Assembly (NCBI GenBank): GCA_943736015.1
Contig: OX031060.1
Span: 10,057,501 to 10,121,500 of the forward strand
Reading direction: 5' to 3'
DNA length: 64,000 bases
DNA from: Tridacna crocea
Lineage: Eukaryota > Mollusca > Bivalvia > Cardiida > Cardiidae
Position numbers and translations under genes: made by a program. Positions 1 to 64,000 of this stretch are shown piece after piece (position 1 is the stretch's first letter; each line of letters begins with the position of its first letter). The notes under the pieces were generated by a model that was not told the origin of the DNA, made no database searches, and was given only the letters and a program-made list of their open reading frames with translations.

Positions 1-190
1 CACCAGTTCTAATGTCCCTGGCTGAAAAAGCTCTGGAAAGCCATATGGATAAGTTACTAGTATTTCTCCTTTTTCCACGATGTTTTCTATCTTTTCAAAG
101 AAAAGAAAAATAACTATTACATTTAAATTAACATTGTCTGCTAATGCAACCTGTATGAGTCTAAAATTTTACCACCAGGTAAAGGTTTAA
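1..190 (-). mobile_element. TTAA hairpin MITE, type A, diverged, cut by window start
   Basis: The right half is recognisable: tttctcctttttccacgatg, then ttttcaaag, then the distal arm ctgctaatgcaacc and gtctaaaattttac. Strand is set by the long arm, which carries the gcaaatgctttcaatttgga motif; minus means that arm lies to the right of the palindrome. Confidence 0.5.
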
Positions 191-454
191 ATCTACTGAA
201 ATATAGATAACAAATGAATTCAAAGACATTTTTTCAATCATGTTTTATTTATATCAAAGAGTATATTGCAGAAAATAGATGATCCCAAGAAAAAGAAACA
301 TAAACAAGATTCTATGTAAAAATTTAAAAAAAGAAAGAAAAAGAGGGTCAAGCAAGCCCTTGGTTGCTCACCTGAATATAAAAATTATGTATAGCTATGA
401 AATGGAGTTTAACTCTTAATGAAACAGACCTATTTTAACAAATCTGAGAAAAAA

Positions 455-610
455 AACTGATAAAAACACTGAGATAATGACGGTAACCAGTATTATCTCC
501 TCTCTTACCATGTTTTCAACCCTTCAAAAGAAGTATCAACTCGTTTTAGAAACATTAACATATTCTTTTGTCGGGATAGGCTTAGTAAAGAGTTAAATAG
601 TAGTGTTTTA
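455..610 (-). mobile_element. Degenerate type A hairpin MITE fragment
   Basis: Only the core ggtaaccagtattatctcc and the following atgttttcaacccttcaaa are similar to the family. The ends are not identifiable. Confidence 0.3.
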
Positions 611-837
611 ACTTAACATAATTATGTGATCATAGATAATCCTTTGTTGTTGTTCACATCTTGGAAGAGGACTATGATAGGATATGTGGCAATAAACATT
701 ATTCAAAAACAAATCTTAAGTTTTGTTCTAACCAGAATGCATTCTGACATAGACAAGTATGTCTGTAAAAATCAACCTAAGCTTTAGATATACCCTTTTG
801 ATTCGAAAGGGTCCTCGATTTAGAAGCGGCCATAACA

Positions 838-1062
838 AATTTATTTGTTTGTTTGATGTTTTACGCCGCTTTTAACATTTTTTTGGTCATATCATATAGA
901 CAGTTCACATATTCATTCATCAGTAATTGGCTAGATTCTGAAGTGTCTAACCCAAGAACACCTGTGAATAAATCCAGTGAGCCAGTGAGGCGCTAACCCG
1001 GGACCTCCAGGTCACGAGTCCTACACTTTACCACTGAGCCACAAAAGACCCCTACCATAAAA
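838..1062 (-). mobile_element. tRNA-derived SINE
   Basis: Read on the minus strand, the head at about 995-1057 has an A-box-like ggctcagtggtaaagt and a B-box-like ggtcccgggttagc. The body ends in an AAAC/AAAT-rich tail near 838-850. A tRNA gene is unlikely because there is no full cloverleaf and the body continues well past the head. Confidence 0.6.
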
Positions 1063-1093
1063 GAACGAACTTATGTTGAGTAAAGTTGGGATG

Positions 1094-1262
1094 GTAAAAC
1101 TTTGCAATACAATACATGTATAGTCCAGTCAGGTGGCAGTTCACTTGGAAAACTGTGGCGAATCATGTTGCCACCTTGCTTTCTGCTCGGGGCTACATAA
1201 TTTGCATCTGCAGCCGTGCACAAATTCTCAAGTGACCTACCACCTTACCGTACAATTAATAA
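1094..1262. mobile_element. Foldback element, family D, diverged copy
   Basis: It shares gtaaaactttgca, tcaggtggca and ctcggggc with the better copy at 19641-19830. The outer parts are inverted with many mismatches. Confidence 0.5.
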
Positions 1263-1499
1263 TTTTCCCACTCTTCCGTTTATTTCTCTAACAGAAACAC
1301 ACTCACAGTAACTTCACAACAATACTGATTGTAAAAAGCTGAATAATTTAACACATACAACTGCAAAAATAGGAGAAGCTAAGTGATTATTTGTTGTGCT
1401 CATAGCACCAATCTTTTTATCAACATAATTATACATCGTATAGGTAAACTTTATACATGATCACTATTCAAATGAAAAGCAAAGATAACCTAATCACTC

Positions 1500-1720
1500 T
1501 TTAATGAATAATCCCTACTTTAAAACACTAAGAAAGAAAACTTGAAAAAAAAAAAAAAAATTCGGGAAAAGACGAAAATGCTGGTAAACAGTATTTTCTC
1601 ATTCTCCAAATGTTTTTAACTCTTCTGAAGACAAATTCCATCATTCGAGTCATATTTAAACTGTCATCAGCAAATGCATTCAATTTGGACAAGTGTACAC
1701 CTATGCTGTATGGTAAAAAG
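1500..1720 (-). mobile_element. Diverged type A hairpin MITE
   Basis: The left end is ttaatgaataatccctac, the core aaaatgctggtaaacagtattttctc, and the right arm carries catcagcaaatgcattcaa. It contains an A run at 1544-1560. Confidence 0.55.
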
Positions 1721-2054
1721 ATAATTATGTTCATCTTTGTACTGGTTATCCTCATAATGTCAGCAATCTAGTCAGAATGAATAATTCAACTTCCAGTGGT
1801 GCAACTCTTCAACCAGTACCCAGACCATGTGTAAGCATACCCTGTGGCAGTGCATACGAAATACAGTGAAATGCAACTGTACTAATGGTTTTAAAAACAG
1901 AGGCAGGTGTCATTGCAATGTTTTGTCTTAAAAATGTATTCAGGCTTTTATGTCTCATTTATAATTCTCGTTACAATAAGCTAATAATATGTCTATATTA
2001 CAGGCACCACAATTGTCTTAAACCTTAGGCTGCTATGCCGAACTCACATACTTT
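1721..2054. other. No gene or repeat recognised
   Basis: AT-rich sequence. I see no splice-flanked open frame and no match to the repeats found elsewhere in the window. Confidence 0.4.
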
Positions 2055-2109
2055 TTGCGGACAGTGTAGATCAAAAACATGCAGTCTGATCTTTGATCTA
2101 CACCGTACA
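2055..2109. repeat. Short inverted repeat, family I
   Basis: acagtgtagatcaaa at the left pairs with tttgatctacaccgt at the right around a cagtctgatc motif. Relatives lie near 14110, 32290 and 39780. Confidence 0.5.
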
Positions 2110-2331
2110 ATGAGGACATATTCCCCCTACACCTTAGCTGGATACGGGTAAAAATATTATAGAGTCTGGAAAGGTCTGTTTGATTTCTGAATAAATATTT
2201 TCAAAGAGAAAAAACTTTACTGGAATGTTGGTAATAAACACTGTAAATTGGTCCCTCCCTCTCATTTCCTTTTTGCTTACATCGAGAAAAAGATAAAGAT
2301 AAAGATGGAGAGGTTGTGATGAATTTACTGA

Positions 2332-2560
2332 TTAACTCTTTACCAAACGACAAAATTTTAGACTGGCCCAAATTGAAAGCATTTGCAGACGACAAAATAA
2401 AAGAGAATGAAAAATTGAAATTTGTTTTGTGAAGGGTAGAAAATACTGTGGGAAAAGGAGAAAATGCTGGTTACCAGCATTTTCTCCTTTTCCCACAATG
2501 TTTTCTAAAGGCTTCTTTCTCAAGGTCATCAAAAGTAGGGATTGTGTGGTAATGGGTTAA
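2332..2560 (+). mobile_element. TTAA hairpin MITE, type A, intact
   Basis: TTAA stands at both ends, the inverted ends are ctctttacca and tggtaatggg, the long arm has attgaaagcatttgcag, and the central palindrome spans about 2452-2502. Confidence 0.9.
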
Positions 2561-2639
2561 GTAGTTCAGATTTGTATACAGATTATTGTAAAAATAAACA
2601 AAAAGGTAAGAGAAATTATTTCAAAATCTTCGTATTTTA

Positions 2640-5339: not shown

Positions 5340-6774
5340 ACACACAAGAAAAGCGTGCAAAACATCTTTATATGGCAAGACAAAATTCTGGATTAACAAC
5401 AAAACAAATAAAAAAATAAAACACAATAAACTGGCAATAAAACAGCATTGGTTATATAAATAAGCTTCAAATACTGCTGGAAAACTTTGCGAATACTCAT
5501 GGCAATAATTTATAAGGAATGTCTTTGTTATAGTGTAAAAAAAAGCAGAACAAATGCATTGTATGTAAGTGCCAATTCTTGGCTGAAGTTCCTTTTAGTG
5601 AATATTTTTATGTCAAAAAAGAGGCATATCTGTGTTAAAAATAGTTTGATGGTTACCTGTCACAGTAGCATGGGTTCCCCTTTTTCTTTATAGTTACAAA
5701 TTAGTCCAATTATAAAGTAATTCTCCTTAGTGATAACAGAGATATTATTTCATGCCAAAGTTTTTGCACCATCACGACTATGCAGACAACTAGGTCATCA
5801 CAAGGGCTATGACAATTATACATGAACATTTTCTTCGAAGAAAAAAGCATCTTAAAAATTGAAAATAGGATAAAAAAATCATTTTTTGGTTAACTATTGT
5901 TAAATTTATTTAAATTGTCAAAGAAAGCCCTGGCCAAAATATTGATATAGAGTTTTTGATTTTATACACATTGGAGAGGTCATCAGACCTCTTCAAAAGT
6001 GGTGAGTTAAAAAGGCAGACTGCCAGTTTCTGTCTAAATCATTTTTCTTGTGAAAATTTTCTGACAAAAAGTCTTTTACATCATGGTTTTGTAAATAAAG
6101 CGAAATAAAAAATGAAATAGGTAATCTACAGGTTTGTTTTTATATGACGAATTTTGAAAAAAAAAAAAATTGTTATATTATTTTGCCATGGCTGCAAATG
6201 ACCTTTCAAATAATTGTAATTTTTCATGAAGCAAATAAGTCTTTAGCAGAAGAAAAAGTAAGAAGAATTTTGTTAAAATAGAATAAGAAGATCATGCTAC
6301 TTGAAAGCCCGGGAAGAAGGTCACATGACTGTCATGTAAAGAATTGGAGTTTTTTTTCCTTATTTATTTGTTTACATGTACCAAAATATATCAAAATTAA
6401 AAACCATCAAACTATCTGTAAACTCTGATGCTGATCTCTCTTGGCTTCTTTCGTAAAGAAGCCAAGTTGTACATATTGTTGTTGACAATCTCCATTTACA
6501 CTTGTTGACTCAAAGGAATTTGCATTCAGTTAAGCTACACTTACAGTTCATTTTTCTCTAGATATGTGTAAAATCATTCTGTGCAATCCGATCTTGATAG
6601 ACACTTACATACATTCATCTAAAAGTTAAGCTTAGCATTTTAAGACTAATAAGTCTTCAAGCAACAACAACATTGGAACAAAATCAACAACTTCAACAAC
6701 ATATCTTCATCATCAACAAAACCAGCAGTGCAACATACCTACTACATGTGAACCATGTTCTGGCAAAAGGGGGC
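5340..6774. other. About 1.4 kb with no recognised gene
   Basis: AT-rich, with short frames that lack splice context. The only structure I see is a small hairpin, cttggcttctttcgtaaaga and onwards, at about 6439-6466. Confidence 0.4.
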
Positions 6775-6926
6775 TTAATTTAAAATTTGTTTTGTGAAGG
6801 GTAGAAAACATTGTGGGAAAAAGGAGAAAATGCTGGTTACCAGCATTTTCTCCTTTTCCCACAATGTTTTCTATAGGCTTCTTTCTCAGGGGCGTCAAAA
6901 GTAGGGATTGTGTGGTAATGGGTTAA
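6775..6926 (+). mobile_element. Type A hairpin MITE, left arm truncated
   Basis: After the left TTAA the sequence jumps directly to aaatttgttttgtgaagg, so the first 60-70 bp of the long arm are missing. Core and right arm are intact. The flanks are gggggcttaa and ttaagccccc, so the insertion sits at the centre of a palindromic target. Confidence 0.85.
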
Positions 6927-7845: not shown

Positions 7846-8069
7846 TTAACTCTTTACCAAATGACAAAATTTTAGACTGGTCCAAACCAGAAGGATTTGC
7901 AGATGACAAAATAAAAGTGACTCAAAAATTGAAACTTGACTTTAGAAGAGTAGAAAATATTGTGAAAAAAATGGTGAAAATGAGCATTTTCTCCCTTTTC
8001 CCACAATTTTTTTCTGAAGGCCTTTTCCTCTCGGTCATAAAAACCAAGCATTGTTTGGTAGAGGGCTAA
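7846..8069 (+). mobile_element. Type A hairpin MITE, first of a chain of three
   Basis: The left TTAA is intact and the right one has decayed to CTAA. The core has lost part of the loop (atggtgaaaatgagcatttt). Confidence 0.8.
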
Positions 8070-8298
8070 TCCTTTACCACATGACAACACTTTACACCAG
8101 TCCAAGAATAAAGTTTTTGCACACGCAAAATAAAAAGAAGCTAAAACTGTCAAACTTGTCTTTGATAGGATGGAAAACATTTTGGGCGGAAAAGGAGAAA
8201 ATGCTGGTTAACAATATTTTCTCCTTTTCCCCAAACGTTTTTTACAGTCATCTATCTCAAGGTCATTAAAAGTCAGCATTGTGTGGTAAAGGCTCATC
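8066..8298 (+). mobile_element. Type A hairpin MITE, second of the chain
   Basis: It shares its left end with the previous copy. The core is gagaaaatgctggttaacaa and the right end is tggtaaaggctcatc. Confidence 0.75.
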
Positions 8299-8703: not shown

Positions 8704-8932
8704 TTAACCCATTCCCACACAAGAAAATTTAGACTGGTCCATATTGAAGGCATTTGCAGACAACAAAATAAAATGCAACTCAAAAAATGAAATTTGGTTT
8801 GAGAAAAGTAGAAAACATTGTGGGAAAAGGAGAAAATGCTGGTTACCAGCATTTTCTCCTTTTCCCACAATGTTTTCAAAAGGCTTCTTTCTCAGGGTCG
8901 TTAAAAGTTGGGATTGTGTGGTAAAGAGTTAA
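8704..8932 (+). mobile_element. Type A hairpin MITE, intact
   Basis: TTAA at both ends and a palindrome at about 8820-8871 with matching arms. Confidence 0.9.
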
Positions 8933-10457: not shown

Positions 10458-10686
10458 TTAACTCATTGACGAACGACAATAATTTAGGTTTGTCCAAATT
10501 GAAAGCATTTGCAGACGACAAAATAAAAGTGACTGAAAATTTGAAATTTGTTTTGTGAAGGGTAGAAAACATTGTGGGAAAAGGAGAAAATGCTGGTTAC
10601 CAGCATTTTCTCCTTTTCCCACAATGTTTCCTAAAGGTTTCTTTCTCAGGGGCGTCAAAAGTAGGGAACGTGTGGTAATGTGTTAA
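10458..10686 (+). mobile_element. Type A hairpin MITE, intact
   Basis: TTAA at both ends, the long arm is gaaagcatttgcagacgac, and the palindrome runs at about 10576-10625. Confidence 0.9.
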
Positions 10687-11020
10687 CTCATTACGAGACA
10701 TGAACATTTCAGATCAATCAATTTTAAAAGCATTGACAGTTGACAAATTGAAAATGGCTAAATTCATATGATTTGTTGTTGAAAAGGTATAAACATTAAG
10801 GGAAGAGGACATATGCTACTGTATAAGTTGAAATTTTTGCGATGCAGATTTTTTTTATGCGATTTTTGTGCTCCATATTTTCCGACTTTTTCAACAAGTA
10901 AATTTATCTACATATACAGTATTTCTCAACATGTTATCCTTTTCTCAAAATGTTTTACAAAGCCATCCATATATAACTGTTTCAACATGTAGAGTTACTT
11001 AAAAGGTTAAAACAAAATTA
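10683..11020 (+). mobile_element. Degenerate type A MITE chained to the preceding copy
   Basis: It begins at the shared TTAA with ctcattacgag, has gaaaaggtataaacattaag and a distant right arm tatccttttctcaaaatg. An unrelated stretch interrupts the core. Confidence 0.45.
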
Positions 11021-11146: not shown

Positions 11147-11375
11147 TTAACTCTTTAGCACATGACAAAATTTTAGACTGGTTCAAACTGAAAGCATTTG
11201 CAGACGACAAATTAAAGGTGACTGAAAAATTTAAATTTGTACTGGGAAGGGTAGAAAACACTGTGGGAAAAGGAGAAAATGCTGGTTACCAGCATTTTCT
11301 CCTTTTCCTAAAGTGTTTTCAAAAGGCTTCTTTCTCAGGGGTGTCAAAAGTAGGAGTTGTGTGGTAATGGGTTAA
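11147..11375 (+). mobile_element. Type A hairpin MITE
   Basis: TTAA at both ends. The left stem has cactgtggg but the right stem has cctaaagtg, so pairing at the base is partly lost. Confidence 0.9.
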
Positions 11376-14279: not shown

Positions 14280-14508
14280 TTAACTCTTTACCACACAATC
14301 CCAACTTTTAATGACCCTAAGAAAGATCCCTTTTGAAAACATTGTGGAAAAAGGAGAAAATGCTGGTAACAAGCATTTTCTTTTTTACCCACAATGTTTT
14401 CTATACTTCCCAAAAGGAATTTCAATTTTTTGGTCACATTCATTTTGTCTTCTGCAAATGCTTACAATTTAGACAAGTCTTTCAATTTGTTGTTTGGTAA
14501 AGAATTAA
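14280..14508 (-). mobile_element. Type A hairpin MITE
   Basis: TTAA at both ends. The core gaaaatgctggtaacaagca has mismatches in the stem. Confidence 0.85.
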
Positions 14509-16153: not shown

Positions 16154-19100
16154 CTGCAAAAAGAAAATGACCACAAGATTATTTTTACAATGCAGCTCTT
16201 AACCCTTTACCACACAAGAAAATTTTAGACTGGTCCAAATTGAAAACATTTGCAGACAATAAAATAAAGGTGAGCAAAAAATCGAAATTTGGTTTGGAAA
16301 GGATAGAAAACATCGTGGGAAAAGGAGAAAATGCTGGTTTCTCCTTTTCTCACAGTGTTTTCAAAAGACTTCTTTCTCAGGGTTGTTAAAAGTCGGGATT
16401 ATGTGGTAAAGAGTTAACCCAGGAGCAAAGCTAGGAGTGTTGTAAAGATGAAGCCCAATTTATTTCGTGCTTTCAGTAGTTTTTCAACAAATAACAGTGA
16501 AATAGTGTTAAATATTTTATAGTTATGACTAGTAAAAACTAGAGCTGAATGTGACTTAACCCATTACCACACAATCCCTACTTTTGATGCCCCTGAGAGA
16601 AGCCTTTTGAAAAACACTGTGGGAAAAGGAGAAAATGCTGGTATCCAGCATTTTCTCCTTTTCCCCCAGTGTTTTCTATCCTTCCCAAAACACATTTCAA
16701 TTTTTGAGTCACCTTTATTTTGTCGTCTGCAAATGCTTTCAATTTGGACCAGTCTAAAATTTTCTTGCCCGCCCGGGTGGCTTAGTGGTGAGTGTGTCAG
16801 ACTCATGACCTGGTGGTTGTGAGTTCGATACTCGGTTGAGGCAAACTTTCTTTCCGGCATATTTTCGCCTATCACCTCTGCTGAAGCATGTGAGAAAAGT
16901 AGTCGGTGGCTTTGGAAAGAAAAGTAGTGTAAGTTCTGGTGTCAAAAGCCAAGAAACACATGTGCGTCCCGACCACCATGATATGACCTTAGCCGTTAAA
17001 GTGGCATTAAACCCTAATACAACCAACCAGCCAACCAACAACTAAAATTTTCTTGTGTGGTAAAGAGTTAATCCCCTATCAGCGCTTTGACAGAAACAGG
17101 CAATTATTTGTACACAGACAAACATACAGACAGACGCGCATGCAGACAAATGTACTGACAGGCAGATTCCAGTATAGCCCTGAAAACATTCATTTTGTTG
17201 CTAGTAAAAGGCTCCAGTGGCACTATCATTTCTAACAATAACTTCAAGCTTTAACTCTTTACCAAACAATCCCAGATTTTCACGCGTTTGAAAAAGAAGG
17301 CTTTTGCTAACCAGCATTTTCTCCTTTTACCACAATAATTTCTACTCTTCTAAAGTCAATTTTCAATTTTTGAGTCAAGTGTATTTTGTCGCCTGCAAAT
17401 GCTTTTGATTTGGACCAGTCTTAAGTTTTGTCCTTTGGAAAAGAATTAAAGCATCTGTAGACATACATGATAGTACAATGGCAAAGTTTTTTTGGGCTTT
17501 GAAAATTAAGCAAAAGTAAATTACCCACCTCAATGTCTTGTCTTCTGTAATTTCCTTTCCGGTCATCCTGTGAGTCTAAAATCAGAGCAAAACCCTTTTT
17601 ATTTACAGTAGTCAAAAATGGAAACACAATCACAAGTTTAACTTTAACTCTATACCACAAAATCCTGAGTTTTAACTACCTAGCGGAAGAAGTCTTAAAG
17701 GTGGGTATTTAGAATTTTCACATCTCACCAAATTAAAAAATAAATATATCATTGAAATTCATATGAAAATATAATACAATTCATCAATAATTAAGCTTCA
17801 TAAAATTACAAAAAAAATTTTTTTGATGGTATTCCCTTAAAAGGTTACGTAGCCACTTAAGGTATTATTAAATTTCGCGCCAAAAATCAATAAAGCATTT
17901 CGGTAATGCCTAGTGACAGTCACGTGACTCATAACGCTTAGATTCCATTACATAGCAAACATGTAATAATTATTTTTCATAATGTCTTCTTCAGACGCTA
18001 TGTTTGAAACTTTATCTGTGTATTCCTGTATGTAAATGAGCAAATTGATCATCTAAAAATAGAACGTGTCCCCCGTCGGTGTCGACCTGGGTTGTAGTAA
18101 ATCTCTAATTTCTCGTGTTGTTGGACAGTGTTCGACTACTGGGGTTTTTTGAATGAAAATTAAACGGCTCTGGGAGCATAAGGATGATTTTTTTGCATTT
18201 TTGTATAATTTCTGTCCCAAAATCTGAAGGGCCACTTTTAACACTTTAATCCATTACCACACAATCCCTACTTTTGATGCCCCTGAAAAAGAAGCCTTTA
18301 GAAAACATTGTAGGAAAAGGAGAAAATGCTGGTAACCAGCATTTTCTCCTTTTCCTACAATGTTTTCTACCCTTTACTAAAAAAATTTAAAATTTTCAGT
18401 CACTTTTATTTTGTCGTCTACAAATGCTTTCAATTTGGACAAGCCTAAAATATTGTCGTTTGGTAATGATTTAACTCTTTACCAACCTACAAAATTTTAG
18501 ACTTGTCAAAATTGAAGGCATTTGCAGACAACAAAAAAAACTTTACTCAAAAAGGTAAGCTTGACTTTAGAAGAGTAGAAAACATTGTGGGAAAAGGAGA
18601 AAATATGTGTTACCAGCATTTTCTCCTTTTCCCACCATGTTTTCAGAAGGCTTCTTCCTCTGGGTCATAAAAACTAGGAATTGTTTGGTAAACTGGTAAC
18701 CAGGGTATTCTCCTTTTCCCACGTTATTTTCTACCTTATCAAAGACAAAAATCATCATTTGAGCTACTTTTATTTTGTCGTCTGCAAATGCTTTCAATTT
18801 GGTTGAGTGCAAAATTTTGTCTTTCGGTAAACAGTTCAATTACAAATTAAACCTGTATTAAAATTAACTCTTTACCAAACAACAAAATTTTAGTCCGATT
18901 CAAATTGAAAGCAGTTGCAGACGACAAAATAAACATAACTCAAGAACTGAAATTTGTTTCCAGCAAGATAGAAAACATTGTGGGAAAAGGAGAAAATGCT
19001 GGTTACCAGCATTTTCTCCTTTTCCCACAATGTTTTCAAAAGGCTTCCATCTCAGGGACACAAAAACCAGGGATTGTTTGGTATAGGGTTAATTAACAAA

Positions 19101-25100: not shown

Positions 25101-28100
25101 CATGGATGGACAGACACACAGAAGGACACGCAGACGGACAGACAGACGGGGTGATTCCACTATACCCTCGGAAACATTCCTTTTGCAGGGGTATGACAAT
25201 GTAAAATTTATTGGTTATATACCTGTGCTGCTGACCATGCTGACATAGTTGACTCTAAAGTTTTGTTGCCAAATACATGTAGTAAGTAAGATTATACAAA
25301 AAATTATTAATTAGATACCTTTGCCACCAACCTCTTTGACATCATTGATGGATGCTGTGTTGTCTGTTCCCATCTTACTGTTGAAAGCATCAATCAACTC
25401 GCGTCTTTTATTCAGAAAGAGGTTCTGCAATGGCTTTTTGTATGTTTCTGAAAGATTGAAATTATTGAACAGTATATATTTGCTTTTGATTGATCAGTAT
25501 ATATTGGTGTTTGATTGGTCAGTATATATTGGCATCTGACCTATAATTGTGAATAGATGTTCAGGCTACTTTTAACCCTTTTACCAGATACGCCCTGGAT
25601 TTTCTGACCTTGACATAAGCAGCTTCTGAAAACATTTTGGGAAAAGGAGAAAATGCTTGTAACAAGCATTTTCTCCATTTCCCAAAATGTTTTCTCCCCT
25701 TCCAGAGGAAAAGTCCCATCATTTGAGCCACTGTTATTTCATTGCCTGCAAAATAATACTTTCAATTCGGACAAGACTAAAATTCTGTTACCTGGTAAAG
25801 AGTTAATTGGAGTGATGTGCTGTAATATGGCTGGGTGGTTCAAGTTTTGAATTAACAGTCTGGGTGTCTTGGGTTCGATTCTCTATCCAGGCACCTGAGT
25901 TTTTATGACACTGTCCTAGGGTAAGGCATACAAGTGTGCCATTGCTGCATTATCTCCCGCTAGATGGCATTCTATAAATACTCATCTATCTAATTTGGGC
26001 ATCCTGGGTACAGAACTGAACCACTTTCCTACTCGACAACCGTTACTTTGAATTTCAAACTAAAATAAAATGTTTATTCAATAAAACGTTACCTCGTGCA
26101 ATTCACTTAGCTATGATCAGCAGTAAAGAGAAATCTGGAGCTTATAGCAGGTCTCATTTCTCCTCAAACATATTGATAAAAGCTATTTTCTACATTACTA
26201 CTTTATAGAGCGTAATATTACAGTCAGCCTGCTTTTGTGGCTAGTGATGCATCATATAAGACAGTCGAATCTTCGAAGAATATGACATGCGCAGACAACG
26301 CCATTGCTGCGACAGGACTAAAATGGCAGTTTGTTCTATCACCTCATACAGTCTGCAACATGCGAAAAGTGATATTTGGATAATTGCGTAAAGCGTCATC
26401 TCAAAGCAGCCTGCGCTGCCAGGTTAATTCAAGACAGCACTACACAACTACATTCAATTTTGTCCTAGAACAGACTTGTACGACACAGAATGCAAAGTGT
26501 TGTCTCGGATTAGCCTGCGCAGGCTGATCTGCATGACACTTAACGGAATTGTCCAAATGTCCTTCTTACTGTGTTGCAGGCCATATAACCAGCATGGTAA
26601 TCAGGAGAACTAGCTCCAACAAGGCTAAGATGGCCCTGGATCACTCATTTTTGAGAAGACCACAAACAATTTTTTGTACAGATAGTATTGAAACTTTGGA
26701 AACAAAATCACTATTTCCTAAGCAATTTTGAAAAACTACTCAAAGAAGAAACCCTTTTAAGACAGAAATATGGCATATACCTCATACAAAACACTTTTGT
26801 TATAGCAAGAAAATTATTTATTGCAAAACAGAATAGCTTCTTTTCCAACAAGCTTCTACATTAATAATCCTATACCAAATGAAACAAGAGGGCCATTGGC
26901 CCTGGAGCGCTCGCCTGAGACTATAGCTGCATTTCTGTCATGATAATGTGATGAACTTTAAACTGTCCACTTAACCTAACCATACTAAAATGTCTTGAAT
27001 TTGACAGGTGAGTGGGGTGGGTGGGTGGTGGGGTTCACCTATTCTTTTGCTTCTGATAACAAATTCTTTTTCTTTATCAGATACATCAATGTTGAAGTCT
27101 CCAAGTATAACTAAGCTGCTGTTTTTATTCAAGAGAGGAATGAGCTCTTTTTGAATAGTTCTCAAGTAATCCCTTTCATACATTGTTGGAGAAAAAGTAA
27201 TTTAAAGTTTTCCTTCTTTGTTCCTATGTTCCAACCTGTGACCTCCGGGGCAGAGCCAGTTTTTATGCCAGGGACATCATATGATCAAATTTGGTAGAGG
27301 TCCACTACAAGATTCTGCATACCATAATCAAAGCTCTGCACCATTAAGTTTCAGAAAAAAAGATTTCTAAAGTTTTCCTTCTTTGTTGCTATGTTCGAAC
27401 CTTTGACCCCCCGGGGCAGGACCAGTTCTGACCCTAAGGGCATAATATGACCAAACTTGGTAGAGGTCAACAAGGTATTGCTACATGCCAAATACCAAAG
27501 CTCTATGCCTTCTAGTTTTAGAGAAAAGAATTTTGAAATTTTCTTTCTTTGTTCCTATGTTCGAACATGTGACACCCGGGGCAGGGCCAGTTTTGACCCC
27601 AGGGGCATCATGAAGAAACTTGGTTGAGGTCCACTGGAAGATGCTACATATCAAATATCAAAGTTCTACACCATAAAGTTTCAGAGACGAAAATTTTTAA
27701 AGTTTTCCTTCTTTGTTCCTGTGTTCAAACTTATGTCCCCGGGATGGGGCCAGTTTTGACCCCCAGGGGCATCATTTGAACAAACTTGGTAGAGGTCAAC
27801 TAGGAGATGCTACATACTAAATATCAAAGCTCTACGCTTTCTAATTTCAGAGCAGAAGATTTTCAAAGTTTTCCGTCTTTGTTCCTATGCTCAAACTTGT
27901 GACCCACGGGGCGGGGCCAGTTTTGACCCTAAGGGCATCATTTGAACAAACTCATATTATGACATTTCCTTGGTCCACTAGATGCTACATACCAAATATC
28001 AAAACTCTACCCTTCTAGTTTCAGAGGAGAAGATTTTCAATGTTTTCCTTCTTTGTTCCTATGCTCAAACCTGTGACCCCTAAGGTGGGACCAGTTTTGG

Positions 28101-34585: not shown

Positions 34586-34924
34586 TACAGATTTACACGT
34601 CATGTACACTGCTATTGTCCTCAATGTGTTCTACATGTATTTTCATGCAGTTTGAAAATAACTTTTATACCAGGTGTAATGTTTTGCTCCATATAAAAAC
34701 AAAATATGTACAAGAACAAAGGGAAAAAGTAAATTGAGGTCACAATTATTGTTTTTTCGTGCCCTGCACTTGCCCATTATTTTATCTATCTGCAAACAAA
34801 GTCAAAAGTCAAAAGTCAAATTAGTTAAACAAAGTCAAAACCATGCAGACAAAAGCAGAACAAGTACTGACACACAAAATTGCTGAATTTAGTTTCCTTA
34901 GTATACTGTGAAAAGTAGTTGTTG

Positions 34925-35172
34925 AATTCCTGAACAATTCCTGACCTACAGTCCATGAACAATCACATCAACTGCAAATGGCCGGTTCATGAACCATTTT
35001 TGTTCATGAACCTTTGTTTTGGTTCTATGAACTGTTCGTGAACAGTTGATGAACTGCTTATGAATAACAGCTCTTAATAAGTTCCATGAACAATTCCATG
35101 AACAGTTCAATGAAGTAAGTATTGAACTGTAGGCCAACCTTTCTTGAATCAAAGTTCATGAACTGGATGTGG
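34925..35172. repeat. Cluster of palindromic GTTCATGAAC-like motifs
   Basis: About a dozen GAAC/GTTC half-sites spaced 3-15 bp apart, e.g. ggttcatgaacc, gttcatgaacc, agttcatgaactg. Also present in the duplicate. Confidence 0.65.
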
Positions 35173-35305
35173 TGTCTCAGACATTTTCCTATAATAGTAG
35201 AAAACCTTGGATCATAAACCCCAATCCTTCAGTTACCTTAATTCAGTTAGGTTGCAGCAGCAAAGTAGCTTTGAAAGAAATTTGCAGGAAGTTTTACTCA
35301 TAGAC

Positions 35306-37481: not shown

Positions 37482-38468
37482 AATGCAGTTTCACCTCAGT
37501 TAATCCTTTACCACATAATCCCAAGTTTTAACAATGCTGAGGAAGAAGTCTTTTGAAAACATTGTGGGAAAGACAGAAAATGCTGGTAACCAGCATTTTC
37601 TCCTTTTCCCACAATGTTTTCTACCATTTCCAAACAAATTTCAAACTTTCAGTCACTTTCATCTTGTCATCTGCAAAATTTATGCTTTCAATTCGGACCA
37701 GTCTTAAATTTTGTCGTATGGTAAGGAGTTAATACAGATTTACACGTCATGTACACTGCTATTGTCCTCAATGTGTTCTACATGTATTTTCATGCAGTTT
37801 GAAAATAACTTTTATACCAGGTGTAATGTTTTGCTCCATATAAAAACAAAATATGTACAAGAACAAAGGGAAAAAGTAAATTGAGGTCACCATTATTATG
37901 TTTTTTCGTGCCCTGCACTTGCCCATTATTTTATCTATCTGCAAACAAAGTCAAAAGTCAAAAGTCAAATTAGTTAAACAAAGTCAAAACCATGCAGACA
38001 AAAGCAGAACAAGTACTGACACACAAAATTGCTGAATTTAGTTTCCTTAGTATACTGTGAAAAGTAGTTGTTGAATTCCTGAACAATTCCTGACCTACAG
38101 TCCATGAACAATCACATCAACTGCAAATGGCCGGTTCATGAACCATTTTTGTTCATGAACCTTTGTTTTGGTTCTATGAACTGTTCGTGAACAGTTGATG
38201 AACTGCTTATGAATAACAGCTCTTAATAAGTTCCACGAACAATTCCATGAACAGTTCAATGAAGTAAGTATTGAACTGTAGGCCAACCTTTCTTGAATCA
38301 AAGTTCATGAACTGGATGTGGTGTCTCAGACATTTTCCTATAATAGTAGAAAACCTTGGATCATAAACCCCAATCCTTCAGTTACCTTAATTCAGTTAGG
38401 TTGCAGCAGCAAAGTAGCTTTGAAAGAAATTTGCAGGAAGTTTTACTCATAGACGTGAAGTTTAAATC
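37482..38468. repeat. Recent duplication, copy 2
   Basis: It starts gaatgcagtttcacctcag right after the exon 2 fragment. The match to copy 1 ends at gaagtttaaatc, where copy 1 enters the 145-bp array. Confidence 0.9.
37500..37732 (-). mobile_element. Type A hairpin MITE, duplicate of 34358-34585
   Basis: TTAA at both ends. Confidence 0.85.
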
Positions 38469-38585: not shown

Positions 38586-38814
38586 TTAACCCTTTACCAC
38601 ACAACAAGATTTTAGAACTGTTGGAAATGAAAGTATTTGCTGATTATAGTTTCAATGTGGCTCATATGAAATTAGTTTTCTTTCATTGGTTGGAAAACAT
38701 TGTGGGAAAAGGAGAAAATGCTGGTAACCAGCATTTTCTTCTTTTCCCAAAATGTTTTCGAAAGCCTTCTCTTATAAGGGTGTTAAAAGTCGTCATTGTG
38801 TGGTAAAGGGTTAA
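38586..38814 (+). mobile_element. Type A hairpin MITE
   Basis: TTAA at both ends. The long arm is diverged (gaaagtatttgctgattata). Core gaaaatgctggtaaccagca. Confidence 0.85.
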
Positions 38815-40184: not shown

Positions 40185-40412
40185 TTTACCCTTTACCCCA
40201 TAAGGCATTTCTATGGTATCTCTAATTGATCCTAAATAACAGCAAGGATGAAGCCTTATCTTATGTGTATATGACATCTTTTGATAGTGTAGAAAACATT
40301 GTGGCAATAGGTGAAATTGCTCGTGACGAGCAATTTCACCTTTTGCCACAATGTTTCAAAAGGCCCCTACAAGCGATGCGTAGAAATGAGTATCTATGGA
40401 GTAAAGGGTTAA
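40185..40412 (+). mobile_element. TTAA hairpin MITE, type B
   Basis: Ends ccctttaccccataaggc and gagtaaagggttaa. The core ggtgaaattgctcgtgacga pairs with its right arm. The arm sequence differs from type A. Confidence 0.85.
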
Positions 40413-40764: not shown

Positions 40765-40992
40765 TTAACCCTTTCCCAAATGACAAATTTTGGACTCTTC
40801 CGAACCGAAATAGTTTGCAGACGACAATTTTAGATTTTGAGAAAACGGCAGAAATGTTCTCAAAAAGGGTTGAAAACACTGTGGGAAAAGGAGAAAATGC
40901 TCGTAATGAGCAATTTCTCCTTTTCCTACAGTGTTTTCATAAGACTTTTACTGCAGACACGTAAGATCAGGGCTTGTTTGGGAAAGTGTTAA
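40765..40992 (+). mobile_element. Type A/B intermediate hairpin MITE
   Basis: TTAA at both ends. The stem is type A (gtgggaaaaggagaaaatgc) and the loop is type B-like (gctcgtaatgagc). Confidence 0.85.
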
Positions 40993-45318: not shown

Positions 45319-45546
45319 TTAACGCATTACCAAATGACAAAATTTTGGGTTTGTCCAAATCTAAAGCTTTTGCAGACGACAAAATAAAAGTGACTGAAAA
45401 TTTGAATTTGTTTTGTGAAGGGTAGGAAACATTGCGGGAAAAGGAGAAAATGCTGATTACCAGCATTTTCTCCTTTTCCCACAATGTTTTCGAAAGGCTT
45501 TTTTCTCAGGGGCGTCAAAAGTAGGGATTGTGTGGTAATGGGTTAA
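45319..45546 (+). mobile_element. Type A hairpin MITE, intact
   Basis: TTAA at both ends, core gaaaatgctgattaccagca. Confidence 0.9.
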
Positions 45547-48365: not shown

Positions 48366-48594
48366 TTAACCCTTTACTTCATAGATACTCATTTCTAGGC
48401 ATAGCTTGTAGGAGCCTTTGGAAAACATTGTGGCAAAAGGTGAAATTGCTTGTGACGAGCAATTTGACCTTTTGTCACAATGTTTTCTATGCTATCAAAA
48501 GGTGTCATATACTCATAAAAAACGGTTTCATCCTTGCTGTTATTTAGGGTCAATCAGAGTTACCATAGAAATGCCCTATGAGGTAAAGGGTTAA
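48366..48594 (-). mobile_element. TTAA hairpin MITE, type B
   Basis: TTAA at both ends, core ggtgaaattgcttgtgacga. The stem is slightly mismatched. Confidence 0.9.
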
Positions 48595-50289: not shown

Positions 50290-50518
50290 TTAACTCTTTA
50301 CCACACGAGAAAATTTTAGACTGGTCCAAATTGAAAGCATTTGCAGACAACAAAATAAAGGTGACTCAAAAATAGAAATTTGTTCTGGTAAGGGTAGAAA
50401 ACACTGTGGGAAAAGGAGAAAATGCTGGTTACCAGCATTTTCTCCTTTTCCCACAGTGTTTTCAAAAGGCTTCTTTCTCAGGGGCATCACAAGTAGGGAT
50501 TGTGTGGAAATGGGTTAA
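50290..50518 (+). mobile_element. Type A hairpin MITE, intact
   Basis: TTAA at both ends. The stem base is paired as cactgtggg and cccacagtg. Confidence 0.9.
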
Positions 50519-51588: not shown

Positions 51589-51817
51589 TTAACCCATTAC
51601 CACGCAATCCCTACTTTTGACGCTCCTGAGAAAGAAGCCTTTTGAAAACACTTTGGGAAAAGGAGAAAATGCTGGTAACCAGCATTTTCTCCTTTTCCCA
51701 CGGTGTTTTCTACCCTTTCCAGAACAAATTTCTATTTTTCAGTCACCTTTATTTTGTCGTTTGCAAATGCTTTCAATTTTGACCAGTCCAAACTTTTCTG
51801 GTGTGGTAATGAGTCAA
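51589..51817 (-). mobile_element. Type A hairpin MITE
   Basis: The left TTAA is intact; the right has decayed to TCAA. Stem base cactttggg and cccacggtg. Confidence 0.85.
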
Positions 51818-54557: not shown

Positions 54558-54778
54558 TTAAGTCTTTATCACACTATCCCAACTTTTAATTAATGACCCT
54601 TAAAAATAAGGCTTTTGAAAACAGAGGGAAGAGAAGAAAATGCTGGTTACCAGCATTTTCTCCTTTTCCCACAATGTTTTCTACTCTCCTAAAGTCAAGT
54701 TTCAGTTTTTGAGTCATGTTTATTTTGTTGTCTGCAACTGCTTTAAATTAAGACAATATTGTTGTTTGGTAGAGTTAA
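54558..54778 (-). mobile_element. Type A hairpin MITE
   Basis: TTAA at both ends. The left stem base is damaged (acagagggaagagaag). Confidence 0.85.
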
Positions 54779-55130
54779 CCCTTTACCCCATAAGGCATTT
54801 CTATGGTATAATACTATTTCTAATTGACCCTAAATAACAGCAAGGATGAAGCCGTTTCTTTTGTGTATATGACACCTTTTGATAGTGTAGAAAACATTGT
54901 GGCAAAAGGTGAAATTGCTCGTCACGAGCAAGTTCACCTTTTGCCACAATGTTTTCCAAAGGCTCCTGCAAGCAATGCATAGAAATGACTACCTTTAGTC
55001 TGAAGGTGTCTGCTCCGATGCTATTTTTGTGACTGGTCTTCGCTAACGAAGACCAGTCACAAAAATAGCATCGGAGCAGACACCTTCAGACTGAAGGTAA
55101 GAAATGAGTATCTATGGAGTAAAACGTTAA
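54775..55130 (+). mobile_element. TTAA hairpin MITE, type B, with nested foldback
   Basis: It shares TTAA 54775-54778 with the type A copy before it. Core ggtgaaattgctcgtcacga. The right arm is split by the hairpin at 54990-55099. Confidence 0.9.
54990..55099. mobile_element. Near-perfect foldback, 53-bp arms
   Basis: Arms 54990-55042 and 55047-55099 pair with one mismatch (54996 against 55093) around a ctaa loop. agaaatga flanks it at 54981-54988 and 55100-55107; an 8-bp duplication fits hAT-type insertion. Confidence 0.85.
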
Positions 55131-56595: not shown

Positions 56596-56824
56596 ATAAC
56601 CCATTACCAAATGACAAAATTTTAGCTTTATCCAAATCGAAAGCATTTGCAGACGACAAAATAAAAGTGACCCAAAATTTGAAATTTATTCTGTGAAAGG
56701 TAGAAAATATTGTGGGAAAAGGAGAAAATGCTGGTTTCCAGCATTTTCTCCTTTTCCCACAATGTTTTCTAAAGGCTTCTTTCTCAGGGGCGTCAAAAGT
56801 AGGGATTGTGTGGCAATGGGTTAT
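56596..56824 (+). mobile_element. Type A hairpin MITE
   Basis: Termini decayed to ATAA and TTAT, core gaaaatgctggtttccagca. Confidence 0.85.
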
Positions 56825-57740: not shown

Positions 57741-57994
57741 AGAAGAACTAAGATCACATACTATTGTCCAAGATACTTTTTCACAGATGTATTACCAAGG
57801 TTTGCAATGTTTTCAAAAGGACAGTATGTTAGGGAGAACTTCCTTAAACAACCCATTCATCACAATTCATAAACAATATTGCAGCAATATCTTGTTGGTT
57901 TTATTCAAGTTTAATTCGAAAAGATATCATGAAACATCAATAGAAAGTAAGGACATAAATATTATAAAAGTTATATCTAGCATCTATCATTTAT

Positions 57995-58042
57995 TTAACT
58001 CTATACCAAACTGCACAATATTTGACTGGTCCAAATTTAATA
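57995..58042 (+). mobile_element. Type A MITE left-end fragment
   Basis: TTAActctataccaaactgc, tttgactggtccaaattta. Confidence 0.6.
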
Positions 58043-58105
58043 TATACCTAGTACCTCTGACATTTTTACCCATGACATTATTACCTATGACATATTTACC
58101 ACTTT

Positions 58106-59485
58106 CACGGGTAGGAAACTTCATATTCAGAGCCAATGGCTCCGACGAGAAAATGTTGTGTTGGTCTTCCGTTTCTGAAGATGTCGGCTGAAAAACAATC
58201 CCAAAACAGGTAGGCATGTCAGTATTTGTAATTATGTGTTCTTACGCCTTTGAAATTAAAATAGAGGAGAATGTCATTCGATCCTCTGGTCTTTCAACGT
58301 GTTTTCTGCACTACGGAAAGTTGGAACAGGTGTTCCATGATGTCTGAATCATTTTTGGCATGGGTTGACCCTAGCCAAAATAATACGTCTCAGAGATAAA
58401 TGCAGGCTCTTTCTGCCCTTTAAATAAGCAGACTAAAGAAATTTTCCTGTTCTACAGGCTTAGATAATTGTCTTTGACGTTTCCATTCGCTCAATCCAAG
58501 AATCTAGAGAAAACTATCCAAAACGGGCGTAATTTAAGAAAGGCTCCGACTGTGTGGGTCGGTTACGAAAATATCGGTTGGCTCCGATGGAAGAGGAATT
58601 CATTTCGTTTATTATTTTTTTCTCTCTAATTTTAGGGTATATAAAAAGGTGCGTCGAGTTGAATGTGAAGCAACAGTTCATTTTAAGCCTATTTTCTCGT
58701 TTTTTTTTATATATAGCAAAGAGAAGTATTTTACCAATTTTACATAATTACTGTCAAATTGGCATTTTGCTTATATGAATGTACAATCAGAAAACGTAAA
58801 AGATGCCATTCATTCCATTTTTTAGCAACATGCTCGAGGGGAACTTTTAGATCAGATCTGTCCGTCGTGCGTTGTCTGTCATTCGTCGTCCATCGTCAGC
58901 TATTTCTTTAAACATCTTCACCTCCTTTACCACAGGGCCAATTTGGACCAAACTTGGCCGGAATGCTCCTTGGGAGGTCCTCTTTAAAAACTGTTCACAG
59001 AATTTGATTCAATCTAAAACGCAAGTTGCCATGGCAACCAAATGGAGCCTTTCTTAAATTACGCCCGTTTTGGATAGTTTTCTCTAGATTCTTGCATTGA
59101 GCGAATGGAAACGTCAAAGACAATTATCAAATCCTGTAGAATAGAAAGATTTCTTTAGTCTGCTTATTTAAAGGGCAGAAAGAGCCTGCATTTATCTCCG
59201 AGACGTATAATTTTGGCTAGGGTCAACCCACGCCACAAATGATTCAGACAACATCGTACACCTGTTCCAACTTTCCGTAGTGCAGAAAACACGTTGAAAG
59301 ACCAGAGGATCGAATGAAATTCTCCTTTTTTTGAATTTCAAAGACATAAGAACACATAATTACAAATACTGACATGCCTACCTGTTTTGGGATTGTTTTT
59401 CAGCCGACATCTTCAGAAACAGAAGACCAACACAACATTTTCTCGTCAGAGCCATTGGCTCTGAATATGAAGTTTCCTACCCGTG
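58106..59485. repeat. Inverted repeat with 442-bp arms
   Basis: 58106-58547 and 59044-59485 are reverse complements at roughly 93 percent, without net indels. The spacer contains a piece of a tandem-core element. Arrays of gacatttttacctat units lie outside both arms (58056-58100 and 59496-59552). Confidence 0.85.
58846..59043 (-). mobile_element. Tandem-core element fragment in the inverted-repeat spacer
   Basis: Reverse-oriented GACGG-type microsatellite (gtccgtcgtgcgttgtctgt) followed by ccatggcaaccaaatgg. Confidence 0.55.
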
Positions 59486-59559
59486 ACTTTGACTCTGACA
59501 TTTTTACCTATGACATTTTTACCTATGGCATTTTTACCTCTGACATTTTTACCTCACAC

Positions 59560-60120
59560 CAATTAGTTATGGTACCTGACAACTTTTTAATATTTTGTTC
59601 ATTAGTTTCGTTGATATTGCAATTACCTATGCACAATTTTTGAAGCCGGTGACACAAGTCATGTGCAATTTAAAAAAAGATGTCATATACAATGCCGTTA
59701 AGAATAATTGTGCTGAAGTGTTTAGAGCTATAACATTGTTTCATGGCATTTTGATTTCATGAATAGGACAAATATATTTACCCTCACAAGATGAAGTAGG
59801 TTTTCTATATACATTTTAAGTACATAATATCTTTTTAACTCATTACCAAACGACAATATTTTAGGCTTGTCCAAATCGAAAGCATTTGCTGAAGACAAAC
59901 TATAAGTGAGTAAAAATTTGAAATTTGTTTTGTGAAGGGTAGAAAACATTGTGGGAAAAGGAGAAAATGCTGGTTACCAGCATTTTCTCCTTTTCCCACA
60001 ATGTTTTCTAAAGGCTTCTTTATCAGGGGCGCCAAAAGTAGGGATTGTGTGGTAATGGGTTAAAGTAATTAATTTGCACTTTGCACACAAAATGGCGGCT
60101 ATTCCGACACCTCTGCTATG
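59560..60120 (+). repeat. Family X repeat, right part, occupied by a MITE
   Basis: gacaactttttaatattttg, gtttcatggcattttgattt, aaaatggcggctattccgac. Confidence 0.7.
59835..60063 (+). mobile_element. Type A hairpin MITE, intact, with empty-site partner
   Basis: Flanks atatcttt-TTAA and TTAA-agtaattaattt. The empty site on the minus strand near 55842 has atatctttttaaagtaatta with a single TTAA. Confidence 0.95.
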
Positions 60121-60463: not shown

Positions 60464-60690
60464 CCCTTTACCAAACAAGCCCTGGTTTTACGACCCTGAC
60501 ATAGAAGACTTTTAAAAACATTGTAGGAAAAGGAGAAAATGCTGGTAACCAGCATGTTCTCCTTTTCCTACAATGTTTTCTACTGTGCTGGAAACAAATT
60601 TCAATTTTTGAGTTAATACATTCAATTTGTTTTCTGCAAGTGTTTTCAATTTGGACCAGTCTAAAATTTTGTAGTTTGGTAAAGGGTTAA
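60460..60690 (-). mobile_element. Type A hairpin MITE, chain copy
   Basis: TTAA at both ends. Paired stem change attgtagg and cctacaat. Confidence 0.9.
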
Positions 60691-60895
60691 CGACCCTGTA
60701 AAAGGCTATTTAAAACATTATTGTGGGAAAAGGAGAAAATGCTGATAACTAGTTTTTTTCTTCTTTTCCCACAATAATGTTTTCCATCCTAGTAAAGATA
60801 GAATTATCGTCACTTGAGCTACACTTATTTTGTTTTCTGCAAATGTTTTCAATTTACTAAAGTCCAAAATGTTGTCATTAATGGTAAAGAGTTAA
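60687..60895 (-). mobile_element. Type A hairpin MITE, chain copy
   Basis: Shares TTAA on both sides with its neighbours. The stem base is extended to attattgtggg and cccacaataat, again paired. Confidence 0.85.
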
Positions 60896-61113
60896 CTCTT
60901 TACTACACAATGCCTACGTTTGAGGCTCCTGGAAAAGAACCTTTTGAAAACATTATGGGAAAAGAAGAAAATGCTGGTAACCCGCATTTCCTCCTTTTCA
61001 AACAATGTTTTCTTCTCTATCAAAGAAAAATTACCCCATTTGAGCCACAATGAAATTGTCGTCTGCAATATGCTTTCAATTTTGCTAAAATTTTGTCGTC
61101 TGGTAAAGGCTTC
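60892..61113 (-). mobile_element. Type A hairpin MITE, chain copy
   Basis: Starts at the shared TTAA, core gaaaatgctggtaacccgca. The right end is decayed. Confidence 0.8.
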
Positions 61114-62185: not shown

Positions 62186-62337
62186 TGCAAAAAGGCAAGG
62201 TTTGTCACCAGTGAGGGCCCATGACGGACAGCGATTTTCTGAGGGTTGATAAATGAAGAGGAAAAGCTAAGAAGTTCATTGCTCATGATGTCATTTTCTG
62301 CTGCTTTTCGTGTAAGACACTATCGTTGATTTCCTTC

Positions 62338-62386
62338 AAAAACCTTGTTACTACAGCTTGAAACAAGCTGTGGTTACAAGGTTTTT
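62338..62386. repeat. Imperfect hairpin
   Basis: aaaaaccttgttactacagc pairs with gctgtggttacaaggttttt around ttgaaacaa. Confidence 0.6.
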
Positions 62387-62529
62387 TAAAGTAAACTGAC
62401 AATTTAATATACTTAAGATAGAAAAACTGCAAAGCTCCCCCTTTGTCAGGGAATCAGCATCAGGTAGTCAAAGTTAGTTTTTGCTCTATTGTCAACAAGC
62501 AAGACAGTTACCGGTATAATATAAGACCT

Positions 62530-62731
62530 GGGTCCGTATTCACCAACCATTCTTGAGAATATTCTTAGTCTTACTCTCAAAGGTTTTCTAAATTTGTAAG
62601 TAACACAACATCTGATTGGCAAAACTGAATGGTTTAGCCAATCAAAGGTTGTGTTACTTACAAGTGTAGAAAATTCTGGCGAATACTGGAGTTAGAACGT
62701 TCTTAAGAATGGTTGGTGAAAATACGGGCCC
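62530..62731. mobile_element. MITE family J
   Basis: Ends gggtccgtattcaccaacca and tggttggtgaaaatacgggc. Confidence 0.8.
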
Positions 62732-62759
62732 TGATACATACAGTATTGAAGTCTCTTGC

Positions 62760-62947
62760 TTAACTCATTACCAAATTTTAAAAAAAATTAGGTTCGTCCA
62801 AATCGAAAACATCTGCAGACGACAAAATGAAAGTGACTGAAATTATGAAATTTATTTTGTGAAGCATTTTCTTCTTTTCCAACAATGTTTTCCAAAGGCT
62901 TCTTTCTCAGGGTCATCAAAAAAAGAGAATGTGTGGTAATGGGTTAA
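62760..62947 (+). mobile_element. Type A hairpin MITE, loop deleted
   Basis: TTAA at both ends. ttttgtgaagcattttcttc shows loss of the left stem. Confidence 0.85.
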
Positions 62948-63055
62948 CTCTTTACCACAATGTGAAAATCTTAGAAAAATCGAAATTGGAAGCATTTCCA
63001 ATGGACATAATAGATGTGGCACAAGTTATGGGATTTGCCTGTGAAAGTTAAGATG
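62944..63055 (+). mobile_element. Type A MITE, left arm only, chained
   Basis: Shared TTAA then ctctttaccacaatg and attggaagcatttccaatgg. The core is absent. Confidence 0.6.
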
Positions 63056-63412
63056 ATAATCTAACAAGTAACCACGATAGGGTTTTAATTACAGAAATAA
63101 CATTTGATGTATTGGAATATCAATACCAAAACTTAAAAAGAGACTATCAATTTGTAAGTGCATAATGCATTCAAACTCTGCAATGAGATAAACTGAACTG
63201 GCATATTGCCTTCTTGTTATTTGAAGTTTGGTGACATTGTCTTTGTTAAAAGTGCATGAATAATCATTGTCACATGACCAAGGTAATCAAGTTCTTTATT
63301 AGAGCACTCAGTTCCAAACCCTTTGTACCGAAACTGCAATATTTTGTTTCTAGCCAATATCTACCCGTATAATGCATGCGTCAAACCTTGCATTGTGATA
63401 CACTGCTGCCAT
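63056..63412. other. No gene or repeat recognised
   Basis: AT-rich, with no coding signal. Confidence 0.4.
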
Positions 63413-63455
63413 TTAACCCATTACCACACAATTTTCTCATGTGGTAAAGAGTTAA
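63413..63455. mobile_element. 43-bp terminal-only TTAA MITE
   Basis: TTAA, then cccattaccacacaatttt, then ctcatgtggtaaagag, then TTAA. Only the two ends remain, abutted. Confidence 0.85.
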
Positions 63456-63678
63456 CCCTTTACAACTCAACCCTAAGTTTTAATGACCCAGAAGAAGAAG
63501 GCTTTTTAAAACATTGTAGGAAAAGGAGAAAATGCTGATACCAGCATTTTCTTTTTTTCCAACAATGTTTTCCACCCTGCTGGAAACAAATATCAATTTT
63601 TGAATTACATAAATTTTCTTGTCTGCAAATGCTTTCAATTTGGACAAGTCTAAAATTTTGTCATTTGGTAAAGAGTCA
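63452..63678 (-). mobile_element. Type A hairpin MITE, chained to the 43-bp copy
   Basis: The left TTAA is shared with 63413-63455. Core gaaaatgctgataccagcat. The right end is TCAA. Confidence 0.85.
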
Positions 63679-63739
63679 ACCAACTAACCATTAACCATTA
63701 AATATGACCAAAGTATTCAGGCTTTGCCAGCTTTGTTCA

Positions 63740-63968
63740 TCAACCCATTACCATACAATCCCTACTTTTGACGCCCCCAAGAAAGAAGCCTTTAGAAAAC
63801 ATTGTGGGAAAAGGAGAAAATGCTGGTAACCAGCATTTTCTCCTTTTCCCACAATGTTTTCTACCCCTCACAAAACAAATTTCAAATTTTCAGTCATTTT
63901 TATGTTGTCGTCTTCAAATGCTTTCAATTTGGACCAGTCTAAAATATTGTTGTTTGGTAATGGGCTAA
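63740..63968 (-). mobile_element. Type A hairpin MITE
   Basis: The core is fully symmetric. The termini have decayed to TCAA and CTAA. Confidence 0.85.
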
Positions 63969-64000
63969 ATCTTGTGCAATGTTAAGCACCATTTTTAACA

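Follow-up and report, generated by a model that had tools for sequence, protein, structure and literature searches.

A TTAA-flanked hairpin transposon clade of very high copy number in the sampled genome of Tridacna crocea, with paired changes in its hairpin

The 64-kb window analysed here, positions 10057501-10121500 of contig C5 (OX031060.1) in the 1,048,827,098-bp assembly of Tridacna crocea, is filled to a large extent by copies of one short element with a central hairpin, a miniature inverted-repeat transposable element (MITE). An iterated nhmmer profile search (E<=1e-3), seeded with the well-preserved copy at 2332-2560 and run over the window and loci L001-L026, gave 91 non-overlapping copies in the window, which cover 16,885 of its 64,000 bases (26.4%) and include 48 near-full copies. 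Copies are found on either strand and at many degrees of decay, in good agreement with a first-pass annotation made from the letters of the window, which had described about 80 copies of a roughly 230-bp element, in two orientations and all stages of decay, over about a quarter of the DNA. The final profile had no matches in the reversed window and 18 random stretches, or in one Markov-simulated set of the same DNA. That annotation had also reported no piggyBac-type gene in the window, and Pfam scans of 12 frames of the window likewise revealed no transposase. Stop-to-stop frames of at least 170 amino acids (aa) numbered 12 in the 268 kb made up of the window and L001-L026; four of these were scanned with Pfam, and neither they nor 10 further window frames contained a recognisable transposase. 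An Rfam scan of the window gave no family at the gathering threshold.

From TTAA to TTAA the element measures about 229 bp (consensus 229), its consensus running through CYCTTTACCA, an outer left arm, a spacer, the hairpin and a short right arm to the inverted CYCTTTACCA-TTAA. The terminal inverted repeats extend about 13 bp after TTAA, and the outer left arm holds a fairly conserved block (about consensus positions 39-63) followed by the less conserved spacer. The two outer arms differ from each other, and the near-perfect central hairpin (about 107-175), with about 33 bases per arm, was computed to fold as DNA with 32 pairs, a 3-base loop and -38.2 kcal/mol. By column, identity averages about 90% within the hairpin, compared with 87% at the ends and 79% in the outer arms. 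The window and 18 random stretches supplied 123 copies that align to both ends; exact TTAA is present at the left end in 101 of them and at the right end in 109, a strong bias that bears out the TTAA-flanked boundaries of the first-pass annotation, and base composition directly outside TTAA is unstructured. The second base of the left end is C (0.42) or T (0.53), and the right end is mostly CCC (0.74).

The flanks of the same 123 copies were also joined by one TTAA and searched against the sampled genome DNA. Any spanning non-self match was obtained for 45 joined sites, and five clean empty sites were identified (J12, J20, J31, J54 and J105), each with a single TTAA that is free of gaps, as are the 8 bases on either side of it; three come from window copies, at 22480 (J12, empty site in L022), 59835 (J31, in L011) and 43987 (J20). 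Since these five filled sites match empty sites with a single TTAA, TTAA is the target-site duplication. Directly abutting copies gave 19 junctions among the 404 complete ends of the window and 16 random stretches, and exact TTAA lies at 16 of the 19, a pattern to be expected had newer copies inserted into the TTAA next to older ones. The element, being short, dispersed and devoid of coding capacity, with inverted termini and a TTAA duplication, is a non-autonomous DNA transposon, and its first description as a TTAA-flanked hairpin MITE was right.

The window is not unusual in this respect. One 10-kb stretch was drawn at random from each of 18 large contigs, at positions within their first 25 Mb, and copies were present in all 18, with 261 copies covering 26.1% of the sequence and a density per 10 kb of 14.5 (range 2 to 30) as compared with 14.2 in the window; two satellite stretches, L018 and L019, are included in these densities. 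Random stretches being as dense as the window (26.1% versus 26.4%), the window is typical of its genome, and the exceptional density first ascribed to this one locus has to be given up. Bootstrap intervals from the random stretches are 19.6-32.6% for coverage and 1.14-1.93 million for copies. In the whole genome, exact TTAACCCTTTACC occurs 133,483 times (reversed pattern, 48) and the exact 31-bp hairpin core 183,553 times (reversed control, 0). The 18 stretches contain 38 exact cores where 31.5 were predicted from the whole-genome count, so the random sample is slightly rich in copies; scaling by core count gives about 1.2 million copies and 21-22% of the genome. Together these figures imply a genome-wide total of about 1.2-1.5 million copies, or 21-26% of 1.05 Gb. 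As far as sampled, one hairpin-MITE clade has taken over the genome.

A local satellite or segmental expansion would be a quite different origin for such numbers, and the first-pass annotation had itself raised a single local satellite. Some copies do sit in structures of this kind: L018 (contig C10) and L019 (contig C11) are tandem satellites, of about 1.64-kb and about 1.85-kb units, with a MITE piece embedded in each unit, so that these copies were carried along by satellite amplification, and the window has one segmental-duplicate pair (34360/37501). In that pair, 34360-35228 and 37501-38377 are near-identical segments, each including a MITE copy, that flank a 145-bp tandem array (35630-37058). 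However, the 18 stretches of different contigs, all with copies, have the same mean density, exact cores occur throughout the genome in the numbers given above, the flanks of copies differ, and empty sites exist. Counted over the window plus 16 random stretches, with L018 and L019 left out, copy runs comprise 304 single copies, 17 doublets and 1 triplet. With no head-to-tail array in that count and with copies in every contig stretch sampled, a satellite origin was rejected as the general explanation, and as such it can be regarded as practically out of the question.

Human Alu, a familiar standard of abundance, has about 1.2 million copies and makes up about 10% of its genome. Insect MITEs collected in iMITEdb are the same kind of element as the one described here, and passages of the source (PMC5199201) give per-superfamily MITE copy numbers of at most 334,508 in 98 insect genomes together, and about 6.4% of the genome for all MITEs of Aedes aegypti, whereas here one clade accounts for 21-26%. 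Set against the insect and Alu figures, this MITE clade is extreme.

How such an element may have been filed in published repeat annotations of the species bears on its class. In the portion of PMC11700175 that holds Table 2, rolling-circle elements make up 22.48%, short interspersed nuclear elements (SINEs) 16.01% and DNA transposons 14.19% of T. crocea. A MITE share of 21-26% cannot fit in 14.19%, so part of it would have been placed under another class in that table, and the shortfall speaks for the proposal that the copies are in fact SINEs or derived from rolling-circle elements (Helitrons), classes to which automated annotation may have assigned part of them. Contrary to this, the copies have inverted repeats at their termini and duplicate a 4-bp TTAA, and no tRNA gene was predicted in the window by ARAGORN; the SINE class was accordingly rejected. 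Further, passages of PMC10858879 give for a different, 1.30-Gb assembly of the same species 34.9% DNA/Unknown in 2,578,864 elements, as opposed to 1.03% Helitron. A SINE or Helitron nature of the copies is therefore very improbable. The MITE would instead appear to belong to this DNA/Unknown class, which likewise consists of very abundant class II repeats but is unnamed, with no family, target site or hairpin given in those passages. In literature searched by title and start of abstract, no published description of the hairpin MITE family was found.

Piggybac-type MITEs typically have TTAA and termini starting with CCY, a pattern that the CYC/GRG termini beside TTAA resemble; they further have in common with the present element short CYC inverted repeats, absence of coding, high copy number and single-TTAA empty sites. 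Where it departs from them is in a hairpin of about 33-base arms that evolves by paired substitutions, and in its roughly 1.2-1.5 million copies. A piggyBac transposase family search of the genome returned at least 118 domain matches, a lower bound, of which 26 have frames that run without interruption for at least 460 aa. Flanks were read for 13 of the 118 (10 loci and three others), and ends were resolved for eight, in three families: L032-L036, 2.8 kb with TTAA-CCCTTTATATAC ends; L029, 2.9 kb with TTAA-CCCATTTATGCC ends; and a family with one locus on each of contigs C1 and C13, with TTAA-CCCTAGTCATGC ends. L029 and L032-L036 have a full transposase frame with both ends read in one piece, and L033 and L035 are located directly at the TTAA of a MITE copy or within a copy. 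No convincing TTAA end pair was found within 1.5 kb for L027, L028, L030 and L031, and the flanks read for a copy of a 492-aa piggyBac family on contig C5 showed ordinary MITE copies alone, and no ends. In L032-L036 the transposase frames are uninterrupted and scores are near-identical across several loci; judged from these sequences, the family was possibly active recently.

TTAA-CCC is common to all three piggyBac families and the MITE, and CCCTTTA to the MITE and the CCCTTTATATAC family. The complete ends are nonetheless different, those of the piggyBac elements being CCCATTTATGCC, CCCTTTATATAC and CCCTAGTCATGC and those of the MITE CYCTTTACCA. The piggyBac-type mover proposed in the first-pass annotation thus stays plausible, with transposases and TTAA-CCC ends present in the genome, while the autonomous TTAA-ccctttacc element it had anticipated was not found among the ends resolved. 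Kolobok and Sola3 likewise use TTAA, and MITEs of both have this duplication in common with the present element. They are listed as MITE superfamilies separate from PiggyBac in passages of PMC5199201. One of these, or another TTAA-targeting transposase, could be the mover in place of piggyBac, and it is in favour of such a mover that the partner is not among the piggyBac families with ends read; against it stand the TTAA-CCC that the MITE shares with resolved piggyBac elements, the CCCTTTA shared with one family, and the piggyBac-like CYC/GRG ends at TTAA. A mover outside piggyBac seems rather unlikely on this evidence, and a piggyBac-type transposase is plausibly the likeliest candidate.

The hairpin itself has a distinct history. 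At 40310-40340 and 40890-40920 of the window, hairpin cores show matching departures from the consensus on the two arms, and this prompted a covariation test on 249 copies (260 less 11 from satellites L018 and L019). Two-sided changes that preserve pairing numbered 148, versus 36.1 +/- 5.7 with one arm permuted (300 permutations, maximum 52) and 14-34 with the partner slid by 1-3 columns; outside the stem there was no excess (113 observed versus 129). Removal of five pairs that mark subfamilies left 65 versus about 22 (maximum 34 in 200 permutations). Compared with the main consensus, subfamilies termed 26, C and D have one, three and four changed hairpin pairs, together five different ones, numbers that are conditioned on the definition of the subfamilies by marker pairs. 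Independent of that definition are two other observations, namely that none of the three subfamily consensuses has a one-sided fixed hairpin difference, every change being on both arms, and that their outer arms differ from the main consensus at 9 (26), 34 (C) and 47 (D) of up to 125 sites. In a tree of 174 copies built from outer arms alone, the D type forms its own clade (9 of 9 copies, support 0.99), the C type comes together in 5 of 5 copies but with a support of 0.08, and the 26 type (15 copies) is mostly grouped and not monophyletic; the tree is star-like, terminal branches taking up 27.3 of 33.0 units of its length. In copy 40766-40991, pair 8 is altered on one arm alone, making it a possible intermediate in a paired change. 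From these patterns in the copies, the hairpin structure looks to have been maintained in source copies.

Arm-to-arm repair after insertion, by template switching or cruciform-mediated correction, could keep a hairpin with no selection at all, and it would account for the excess of compensated pairs (148 versus 36.1). It is also favoured by a core less different than the outer sequence, both between close relatives (core/outer difference ratio 0.62 in 71 pairs) and in the tight 26 subfamily (2.0% versus 5.6% for all differences), and by the four fixed changes of subfamily D, all of which swap pair bases between arms (G-C to C-G, A-T to T-A) and could be produced by copying one arm over the other. 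Correction of this sort, however, should leave many private two-sided changes between close relatives. In the 71 disjoint nearest pairs, 267 changes are one-sided, 10 are two-sided with pairing and 12 two-sided without it, a modest excess of two-sided changes over the 12.8 expected by chance, and the tight 26 subfamily (14 copies) has 18 one-sided hairpin changes and no two-sided ones; in addition, the D hairpin state coincides with the outer-arm clade. As two-sided changes are few in close relatives, post-insertion correction would have been weak at best, and the paired changes would trace mainly to source lineages. That repair chiefly preserves the hairpin is made less likely by these counts and is considered improbable, about on a par with a mover outside piggyBac.

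Taken together, the findings are probably best explained by a very old and hugely amplified MITE clade, mobilised by TTAA cut-and-paste transposition, whose hairpin was kept in source copies. A TTAA-targeting transposase, most likely of the piggyBac superfamily and supplied by other elements, would have excised copies at their ends and carried them to other TTAA sites, including those that adjoin older copies. The hairpin may have been kept in mobile source copies because it helped movement or escape from silencing, and paired changes would have arisen in source lineages and then been inherited by subfamilies. Several points weigh against this explanation. No piggyBac element having CYCTTTACCA and the subterminal sequence of the MITE was found at the eight resolved loci, with flanks read for 13 of 118 matches, and the search for a partner covered piggyBac alone among TTAA-using superfamilies. 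Most of the 45 spanning matches in the empty-site test were weak, gapped or at other MITE ends and were not counted, and a gap lies inside or beside TTAA in J18, J27, J46, J60, J92 and J117. Singleton changes in the tight 26 subfamily amount to 1.6% per site in the core and 3.4% in the outer sequence outside CpG (p=0.008), and a slower core within a tight subfamily is not predicted by neutral decay from a single source; it could come from unresolved source diversity, lower mutability or some conversion. A benefit conferred by the hairpin is, finally, an inference. More tentatively, and with appreciably less confidence than the explanation as a whole, the clade may rank with the most abundant single transposon clades of any animal and may owe its success to the hairpin as a selected mobilisation signal, with the arms of source copies free to change only together and the element recognised or protected by way of a folded DNA or RNA shape in addition to its ends. 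Table 1 gives a selection of the copies in the window.

Table 1. Selected hairpin-MITE copies and parts of copies in the 64-kb window
Feature	Position	Strand	Detail
Well-preserved copy, TTAA to TTAA, profile prototype	2332..2560	+	242.9 bits
Central hairpin of copy 2332..2560	2439..2505	+	33 bases per arm, one central base at 2472
Copy truncated 5'	6771..6925	+	Profile match
Copy adjoining 8067..8292	7847..8068	+	Matches overlap 2 bases at shared mutated TTAA (CTAA)
Copy adjoining 7847..8068	8067..8292	+	Profile match
Near-full copy	8705..8931	+	Profile match
Near-full copy adjoining half copy 10684-10811	10459..10685	+	Profile match
Near-full copy	11148..11374	+	Profile match
Near-full copy	14281..14507	-	Profile match
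Near-full copy, exact TTAACCCTTTACC end	16200..16416	+	Profile match
Near-full copy, its left end joined to that of 18472-18691 (+), shared TTAA	18247..18473	-	
Near-full copy	18865..19091	+	Profile match
Near-full copy, empty site in L022	22480..22708	+	Single TTAA, 89% over 197 columns
Near-full copy in duplicated segment	34360..34584	-	Twin 37501-37731, 0.9% different
Near-full copy, exact TTAACCCTTTACC / GGTAAAGGGTTAA ends	38587..38813	+	Profile match
Subfamily D copy	40188..40411	+	Hairpin pairs 3, 8, 13, 20 swapped on both arms
Subfamily C-like copy	40766..40991	+	Pairs 3, 26 swapped; pair 8 changed on single arm
Near-full copy	45320..45545	+	Profile match
Subfamily D copy	48367..48593	-	Pairs 8, 13, 20 swapped
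Near-full copy	50291..50517	+	242.8 bits
Near-full copy	51590..51814	-	Profile match
Subfamily D copy	54776..54985	+	
Near-full copy	56597..56823	+	Profile match
Near-full copy, empty site in L011	59835..60063	+	Single TTAA, 87% over 164 columns
Two same-orientation copies, one shared TTAA	60688..61112 (60688-60894, 60893-61112)	-	
Near-full copy	63742..63966	-	Profile match

The window also contains features of other kinds. Tandem arrays lie at 27193-28453 (166-bp units) and 32526-33294 (155-bp units), and a long open frame at 33423-34250 (-) matches Pfam ATPase_2 (3.8e-9), an NTPase domain of the STAND type. Segments 57990-58241 (-) and 59350-59640 (+) form an inverted duplicate whose translations have a 45-residue stretch in common; a 15-bp minisatellite (TGACATTTTTAC-like) is found in both, and its complement at 57338. 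The frame at 26974-27201 (-) is weakly similar to the endonuclease domain Exo_endo_phos (E 0.06, under the cut-off), a domain that occurs in retrotransposons too.

Should one hairpin MITE clade account for 21-26% of a gigabase genome, it is a main contributor to genome size in T. crocea. It would also explain the disagreement between the two repeat tables of the species, in the parts of them cited above, where 22.5% rolling-circle elements in one are set against 34.9% unclassified DNA elements in the other. Beyond annotation, a million-plus copies of one hairpin in recognisable subfamilies amount to a natural experiment, in which counting could show whether selection or repair keeps long palindromes, and whether internal structure affects the mobility of a transposon.

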